NCBI GenBank assembly: GCA_027450205.1
Contig: DAIDJL010000007.1
Span: 1 to 44,431 of the forward strand
Reading direction: 5' to 3'
DNA from: Candidatus Parcubacteria bacterium
Lineage (GTDB): Bacteria > Patescibacteriota > Minisyncoccia > UBA6257 > 2-01-FULL-56-20
DNA: 44,431 bases
Below are positions 24,202 to 26,247 of the stretch, piece by piece; the stretch's first letter is position 1; every line of letters begins with the position of its first letter. The notes under the pieces are model-generated. The model was given only the letters and a program-made list of their open reading frames with translations, searched no databases and was not told the origin of the DNA. Position numbers and translations under genes: made by a program.

Positions 24202-25545
24202 CTACTGCGGGAAGGTGAACTGCAATAACTTTTGCCCCCGATCGATGAGGTAGAGCGCGTTTTGCTGCGGATCGTACGATGCGTTGGTGCCTGCGGAGAC
24301 GGTGATGAGGTTTTTCAATGCCGCATCGGCGAGATCAAGGAATGCGATGCGGCCGGGGTATTCCACGAAAAGGTGCGTATTGTCCTTATACCAGATGAGC
24401 CCCTGCACATCCGGGGTGTCCGGAAGATCGAAACGATAATACCCCTGCGTCGGGAATACGAATACTTCCAGGCTGTGGTATTCCAATGCCGCGAGCGCGG
24501 TGCCGTCGGCGGTAGGGAAGAATTGTTTGACGTCATTGGCGATCGTGGAAAGTTGTTCATTTGGCACGTTATATGAATAGAGGGTGTTATCACTTGCGAG
24601 GATGCCGAGGACGCCATTCTGTATCCACGCGAGCTGTTTGACGGGTCCTTTGATGAAGAGAGAACTGTCGATCGTATTGCCGGAGAACTTATCGTAGGCC
24701 ACGATCTGAGATGTGCTTGATGCTGACGAATAGCGCGCCCACGCCATGACGGACGGCGAGACGGCAATAGGGGATTCTATTGCTTCTCCTATGGGCGCGG
24801 TATCAATGATGGTCGCACGGCGCGTGCCGCTGTCGATGGCCACGATCTGTGCGGGGGTCTGCACGATGATGCTCGTATCGTCGTATGGATCTATGAATAC
24901 ATTTGTGGTTGGCGTGGACCTTATGCCCGACCGCCTCATGAGCGCGGAAAGGTTGGTGCTTGTCGCAGCCGTAAAATCGTAGAGAGAATAGGTCGTGGCG
25001 CCGGTTTTCTCACTGATCGTGCGGATGATCGCGGTCCTAAGGTCGGTGCTGTGGCTCACTATCGTGCCGTATCCGATGACCTTGCCCCGCCAGGAGATCG
25101 TGGCGCTCGCATTTTGCACGACGATATTTCCATCCGCTTCAAAAAATCCGCCCACTGCCGCCGTGTCCGTCGCGACGTTTACGGCATTTTTTGGTACGAG
25201 CACGGCATACTTCATTTCGGTGACGAGCGACGGGGCAACCTGCGCGTTTTCGGTCCACGCATCATAGCCGGCTTCCGTAAGGGTGAGGGTATAGGTCTTT
25301 GGGAAGAGGCCGGAGATGAACGTGCCACGGCTCAGGAACGCCGACTGGTTCTGGATAGGTTTTCCATTCAGGGTAATTTGCGCATCGTCGGGGAATGACC
25401 TGACGTAGATACCGCCGGCCTTTTCTGCCTCGAGCGTGGAAAAGTTGATGCGCCATCCTTCGGCAAAAAGCACGACGGCTGCGCCGATGACGATGAATAA
25501 AAGAAGAAACACATAGAATATGCGTTTCCGAGTCTGAAGTTTCAT
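24202..25545 (-). CDS. PEGA-domain protein with beta-propeller-like C-terminal region, N-terminal TM
   Basis: GGIYVRSFPDDAQITLNGKPIQ..FISGLFPKTYTLTLTEAGYDAW. Confidence 0.75.
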   Translation of the reverse strand: MKLQTRKRIFYVFLLLFIVIGAAVVLFAEGWRINFSTLEAEKAGGIYVRSFPDDAQITLNGKPIQNQSAFLSRGTFISGLFPKTYTLTLTEAGYDAWTENAQVAPSLVTEMKYAVLVPKNAVNVATDTAAVGGFFEADGNIVVQNASATISWRGKVIGYGTIVSHSTDLRTAIIRTISEKTGATTYSLYDFTAATSTNLSALMRRSGIRSTPTTNVFIDPYDDTSIIVQTPAQIVAIDSGTRRATIIDTAPIGEAIESPIAVSPSVMAWARYSSASSTSQIVAYDKFSGNTIDSSLFIKGPVKQLAWIQNGVLGILASDNTLYSYNVPNEQLSTIANDVKQFFPTADGTALAALEYHSLEVFVFPTQGYYRFDLPDTPDVQGLIWYKDNTHLFVEYPGRIAFLDLADAALKNLITVSAGTNASYDPQQNALYLIDRGQKLLQFTFPQ

Positions 25546-25603: not shown

Positions 25604-25634
25604 TTGATATCTTTTTCCCGCGCGGTGGTATAAT
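25604..25634 (+). promoter_or_regulatory. Extended -10 promoter for candidate ncRNA
   Basis: TTGATA 25604-25609; TGG-TATAAT 25626-25634. Confidence 0.6.
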
Positions 25635-25640
25635 GGAGTT

Positions 25641-25790
25641 AGATCCCGCGCAGATTTCGGATCAAACAATATTAAAGGGGAAAGCAAATCTCTGCCGCCC
25701 GTGGGCCGCAGTTGAGCTTACCCACCTGGCTGTTACGCCAGAAATCTGACGGGATTTAATAAAACACCAGCACACGCCGGTGTTTTTATT
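25641..25790 (+). ncRNA. Candidate stand-alone structured ncRNA (three-helix junction plus terminator); class not recognised
   Basis: AGATCCCGcgCAGATTTC 5' strand pairs with GAAATCTGaCGGGATTT; internal hairpins GGGaAAGC..CTGCcGCC/GGCcGCAG..GCTTaCCC and TGGC/GCCA; terminator AAAACACC..GGTGTTTT. Confidence 0.65.
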
Positions 25791-25876: not shown

Positions 25877-26224
25877 TCAGCGTATGGGATATGCGACAAA
25901 ACCCAATCCGTTGATATTTTCAGCGATCTCGATCCTCCATTCTTTTACCGGCCGCCGTGCGTTCGCATACTCTTTGGTGATGCGCATGATCTCGCGCGCC
26001 ATTGCTTCCGGCGTGGGGATCGGAGACCAGAGCTTGGGATTGTTCATAAAGGGATGCTCCGTGAATATCCGGCATCGGGTCGTTCGGTCACTGACGCACC
26101 CCGCATAACGAAATGGTCGTGCCGAATCCGCAGGAAATACGGCTCGCAGAAAAGAGATCAGGGCGTCCAGATTCGCCGGTACATTTCCTATAGGTTTTGA
26201 TGCCGGTAGGTCTGCAGCGCGCAT
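25877..26224 (-). CDS. Hypothetical protein
   Basis: ORF with GGAGG 8 nt before ATG 26224; no family recognised. Confidence 0.6.
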   Translation of the reverse strand: MRAADLPASKPIGNVPANLDALISFLRAVFPADSARPFRYAGCVSDRTTRCRIFTEHPFMNNPKLWSPIPTPEAMAREIMRITKEYANARRPVKEWRIEIAENINGLGFVAYPIR

Positions 26225-26247
26225 TTTCAACTCCTCCTAAAAACAAC

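Follow-up and report, generated by a model that had tools for sequence, protein, structure and literature searches.

The RNA gene on the forward strand at 25604-25790 of the window (the whole stretch of 44,431 nucleotides that was analysed) very probably encodes a compact and divergent version of 6S RNA (SsrS) in this genome of the Patescibacteria (Parcubacteria). Patescibacteria are a very large group with tiny genomes and a mostly host-dependent way of life, and 6S RNA was not annotatable in them with the current Rfam model (RF00013), which gave no match over its cut-off in any of the 41 genomes of the order or the 39 genomes of the phylum that were searched. A compact, single-copy 6S RNA in this group, including an order that has neither SRP RNA nor Ffh, would extend 6S RNA to a deep bacterial branch and give a concrete RNA handle on the way in which transcription is idled and resumed in these cells. 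From the seed alignments, Rfam could also gain a new or split 6S model. A literature search, made without the main 6S survey (Wehner 2014), brought up no relevant link of 6S RNA to Patescibacteria, Parcubacteria or Saccharibacteria.

That the locus holds a real, stand-alone structured RNA gene is confirmed. A preliminary description of the sequence had proposed a promoter, paired outer strands that enclose a long and a small hairpin, and an intrinsic terminator, and all of these were found where it had placed them (Table 1). The spacer from TTGATA to the -10 element is 19 nt long, and for this reason the promoter is not listed by a consensus scan that uses spacers of 16-18 nt. Seven bases lie between the end of the extended -10 element and A25641, at or near which the transcript is predicted to start. 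This is also the 5′ end of the closing stem, in which the window RNA differs from RF00013. In the predicted fold the outer stem is made by 25641-25648 and 25651-25658, which pair with 25741-25748 and 25750-25757. The region 25640-25790 has a folding energy of -56.7 kcal/mol as against -36.6 ± 3.8 kcal/mol for 200 dinucleotide shuffles, none of which folds as low (z -5.3). The neighbouring long ORFs (24202-25545 and 25877-26230) are both on the minus strand, opposite to the RNA, which agrees with the initial view that the RNA is not a cis leader.

Table 1. Parts of the 6S-like RNA gene, in positions of the window
Feature	Positions	Strand	Basis
Promoter: TTGATA (-35-like); extended -10 TGG-TATAAT	25604-25609; 25626-25634	+	Read from the sequence
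6S-like RNA core	25641-25757	+	R1 match with E 2.4e-30; fold z -5.3; relatives tied to RF00013
P1 closing stem, 5′ strand	25641-25658	+	Pairs with 25741-25757; compensatory changes; own-partner complementarity z 23
5′ central bulge GGAUCAAACAAUAUUAAAG, 19 nt	25659-25677	+	Unpaired in the fold; conserved (C)CGGAUCAAAYAAUU
Apical arm: P2 (GGG..GC/GC..CCC), internal loop, P3 with short stable loop	25678-25723	+	97% of cells paired; compensatory changes in P2 and in P3
3′ central-bulge strand: CCCACCUGG signature (25721-25729) and hairpin P4 (25727-25740)	25721-25740	+	Signature near-invariant
P1 closing stem, 3′ strand	25741-25757	+	Fold; covariation
Intrinsic terminator: hairpin (25761-25786) and U tract	25761-25790	+	Fold; terminator-like hairpins in relatives

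The gene is also lineage-wide, as conservation and covariation show. By blastn, which had been suggested together with a covariation analysis, the RNA was found in 22 of 100 relatives, once per genome. We aligned 20 copies with MAFFT without using structure (alignment A1, independent of the covariance models) and tested the alignment against the structure: 91.8% of its cells are paired and 17 pairs have changes on both sides, and none of 500 shuffles is as good. The pairing falls to about 55% when the partner is slid by one column. Strong covariation is seen in the helices P1, P2 and P3, and each of the two P1 strands is far more complementary to its own partner than to swapped ones (z 23). 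A covariance model made from the blastn relatives of the window RNA (R1) was run on 151 genomes, namely that of the window and 150 relatives from its order, and has matches in 114 of them, nearly always in single copy. With a second model built from the R1 matches (R2) we found the RNA in 93 of the 238 class genomes and 101 of the 287 phylum genomes searched, again almost always once per genome. The minus strand of locus L021 was left out as a model-strand artefact. For a third model, built from the wide set (R3), the best match in three genomes of 4-5 Mb from outside the Patescibacteria is no better than E 3.

The named organisms carrying an RNA of the window type are Ca. Liptonbacteria and Parcubacteria group bacteria. 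Ca. Liptonbacteria are close kin of the window's family. A pattern scan of contigs gave, besides these, matches in Rhodospirillales, Gammaproteobacteria and Pirellula, which have no model support and were discarded as chance. The signals around the RNA are kept in relatives as well. On examining 90 order-level relatives, the -10 box was found to retain at least five of the six positions of TATAAT in 77 cases (13.9 expected from shuffles), and a terminator-like hairpin is present 3′ of the RNA in 42 cases (1.1 expected). One genome (G123) has two tandem copies on the minus strand (locus L087, 2158-2280 and 2501-2620), which recalls the paralogous 6S-1 and 6S-2 RNAs of B. subtilis. Also, the tip of the apical arm is longer by 10-25 nt at six loci (L054, L058, L059, L085, L090 and L094), and the short arm is therefore variable at its end.

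It is in the class of the RNA that the preliminary description has to be revised. In an Rfam scan, which it had also proposed, neither the window copy nor the copies at 18 related loci reached the cut-off of any family, and to this extent the statement that the RNA matches none of the known SRP, 6S, tmRNA, RNase P or riboswitch cores holds; the part of it that sets 6S RNA aside was wrong, and so was the label of an unrecognised class, since relatives in other classes score just under the RF00013 cut-off exactly on the RNA. The window copy itself has no match to RF00013 even at E 10, and a relaxed scan with Rfam gave it chance sub-threshold matches only. We carried out a relaxed cmscan with all Rfam families on 20 loci that R2 had identified, almost all of them belonging to other classes, and found RF00013 in nine of them, each time exactly at the place of the R2 match and along the whole or the greater part of the 6S model. 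With 42.5 bits as compared to the cut-off of 46.4, the highest-scoring of these has E 3.1e-5 in a search of 62 kb with 4227 families. A second set of 18 loci, for the most part of the order and the class, gave RF00013 in four cases, again exactly on the RNA. RF00013 is thus present in 13 of 38 loci; all 13 matches lie exactly on the window-type RNA and none elsewhere in the loci. One of the four matches in the second set is in a locus of Ca. Liptonbacteria (L113), with 22.7 bits and, on its own, E 1.5.

The reverse test, in which RF00013 was searched against the 39 phylum genomes, gave six matches at E ≤0.01, none over the cut-off. Of these, three (in G377, G384 and G389) are R2 places. Two others (loci L185 and L186) are in G376 and G391, genomes in which R2 had no match at all, and both places are also matched by R3, which was trained on neither genome (E 2.5e-11 and 2.7e-7, respectively); the sixth is in G379. 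Homology was therefore found in both directions between the models of the window's family and RF00013, by way of shared loci. In the window's order the Rfam score is about 20 bits or gone. R3, in turn, gave no match to the ssrS of E. coli. As the window copy is not matched by RF00013 and R3 does not see E. coli ssrS, the identification as 6S RNA depends on members of the class and the phylum that are intermediate between them.

The structure leads to the same identification. The fold and the covariation give the 6S layout of a long closing stem, a large 5′ central bulge, a hairpin on the opposite strand and an apical arm. A hairpin opposite the 5′ central bulge belongs to canonical 6S RNA, as in lactic acid bacteria and B. 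subtilis, where the start of the product RNA also lies inside the bulge (PMC8414754); these 6S RNAs are longer than the window RNA. The RF00013 consensus GGGag..gggcaCCCACCUgg corresponds to GGGAG..CCCACCUGG of the window's family at the same structural place around the central bulge. GGGA and CCCACCU, which flank the bulge, are invariant or nearly so in A1, and the same is found in the RF00013 consensus (CACCCACCUgg). The RNA thus resembles 6S RNA in having its own promoter, a single copy and reciprocal covariance-model matches, together with the layout and the GGGAG..CCCACCU signature. Its own terminator and long stem, with no need of a gene downstream, speak for 6S RNA as well. The RNA differs from RF00013 in that its core is 117 nt long, its bulge reads (C)CGGAUCAAAYAAUU, and it stays below the cut-off in all Patescibacteria tested. 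Its apical arm has 46 nt as against 74 model positions (about 59-132) in RF00013, and Rfam misses RNAs of the window type because this arm is short and the stems are divergent.

Among the other readings, the one that keeps most weight, though we consider it improbable, is that of a 6S descendant with a changed function, which like Ms1 would bind the core polymerase without the primary sigma factor and store the enzyme, with no mimicry of a promoter. Ms1 of Actinobacteria is a polymerase-binding small RNA that is structurally related to 6S RNA and binds core RNA polymerase (PMC9130861), so that there is a precedent, and it shares with the window RNA a 6S-like shape and an occurrence where 6S models fail. 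The shortened apical arm could also weaken contacts with sigma region 4. Ms1 is, however, a core-polymerase binder of about 200-300 nt that is limited to Actinobacteria as described, and the window's family retains the hairpin opposite the 5′ bulge and the CCCACCU signature. Moreover, the cmscan with all Rfam families gives RF00013 at these places and no other family.

Still less probable is a housekeeping or trans-acting RNA of a new class, one that is unrelated to 6S RNA and only resembles it. In agreement with such a class, the Rfam cut-off is reached nowhere in the lineage, R3 does not match E. coli ssrS, and the bulge sequence GGAUCAAAYAAUU is, to our knowledge, not found in other 6S RNAs. 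Against it, the models of the window's family and RF00013 match reciprocally at shared loci of independent genomes, with common sequence words at the same structural position. A riboswitch or cis leader, which the compact three-way-junction layout with conserved joining strands might bring to mind, has very little probability left, as the RNA has its own terminator directly after the stem, its neighbours are on the other strand, and it occurs in single copy per lineage with differing downstream neighbours.

A divergent SRP RNA is practically refuted: RF00169 matches in none of the 39 order genomes, so that the slot seemed open, but the protein partners are absent too, with the Ffh M domain (PF02978) in none of the 39 genomes (all 14 controls were detected), practically all SRP GTPases missing and no convincing one in the genomes of the order, and no SRP motif in the window RNA. 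Loss of SRP in Parcubacteria has already been published (PMC4508563). RNase P RNA is ruled out, being found elsewhere in the genome.

Taking the RNA as 6S RNA, its mode of action can be outlined by analogy. 6S RNA is an RNA decoy that parks RNA polymerase. The closing stem would take the place of downstream DNA. The template strand of the opened promoter would be imitated by the 5′ central bulge (GGAUCAAAC..) and the upstream promoter duplex by the apical arm. As such a mimic of an open promoter, the RNA would fill both the active site of the polymerase with the primary sigma factor (sigma-70) and its sigma region 4, and block ordinary promoters. Once nucleotides are back, the polymerase would transcribe a short product RNA that begins on the bulge and runs on into the closing stem, and this product would open the stem and release the enzyme. 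We infer polymerase binding, product-RNA synthesis and release by refolding from the known behaviour of 6S RNA. On mapping by eye in the RF00013 alignments, U25662 corresponds roughly to U44, the product-RNA start in E. coli. From this, the product RNA would start near U25662 and is predicted to read AUCCGAAAUC.. in the window's genome and AUCCGGAAUC.. in most of the order. A GG is conserved at positions 4-6 of the product RNA in 6S RNAs (PMC8414754); this would hold in most of the order (CCGGAU), with the GG at positions 5/6, and not in the window's genus (UCGGAU). A template-strand -10 element was considered for the bulge, as ATTATA at a distance of seven bases from the putative start of the product RNA. 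It is exact at loci L029 and L080, but the family consensus there is only A/U-rich, and the element was rejected. This result, the GG that is not kept in the window's genus and the short apical arm count against 6S RNA.

The genome (G000, 860 kb) has one long protein of the sigma-70 family (437 aa) and five short, ECF-sized sigma factors on contigs C2, C4 and C5, which speaks for the reading as 6S RNA. A brake on the holoenzyme with the primary sigma would therefore have rivals to favour. As for refolding, complementarity between the bulge and the 5′ strand of P1, which would allow another fold, does not exceed that of swapped partners (z 1.1). The A/U-rich strand of the bulge is complementary to the spacer after P4 with an own-partner z of 4.1, in a statistic that ignores kinship, and this complementarity is seen at loci L045, L046, L048, L051 and L105. 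This hints at a possible alternative fold in some members. A broader proposition is that of a phylum-wide compact 6S subtype, in which the short arm goes with altered polymerase contacts (core binding like that of Ms1, or no contact with sigma region 4) or with altered release by built-in refolding. We regard it as unlikely, if less so than an RNA that has given up the 6S function; the suggestion of built-in refolding comes from members whose bulge strand could base-pair with the 3′ spacer.

The neighbourhood of the gene was compared across the phylum. Divergent from the 6S gene and upstream of it lies a minus-strand gene (24202-25545) for a protein of 447 aa that has no Pfam match. The protein occurs in about 20 genomes of the window's family with 22-64% identity and is likely a clade marker of the locus. 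By comparison, the 6S neighbours in lactic acid bacteria are rarA and uspA. In other classes of the phylum, genes for tRNA-Pro or tRNA-Thr/Tyr often follow the 6S gene on the same strand at a distance of 9-390 nt (loci L150, L154, L157, L160-L164, L166-L168, L170, L172 and L176). With a family-specific gene in one case and tRNA and RNase P RNA genes elsewhere, the neighbours of 6S RNA are therefore conserved by clade only. In several of the tRNA loci, RNase P RNA is found about 0.2-1.1 kb further on, and a stable-RNA cluster of 6S RNA, tRNA and rnpB is possible there.
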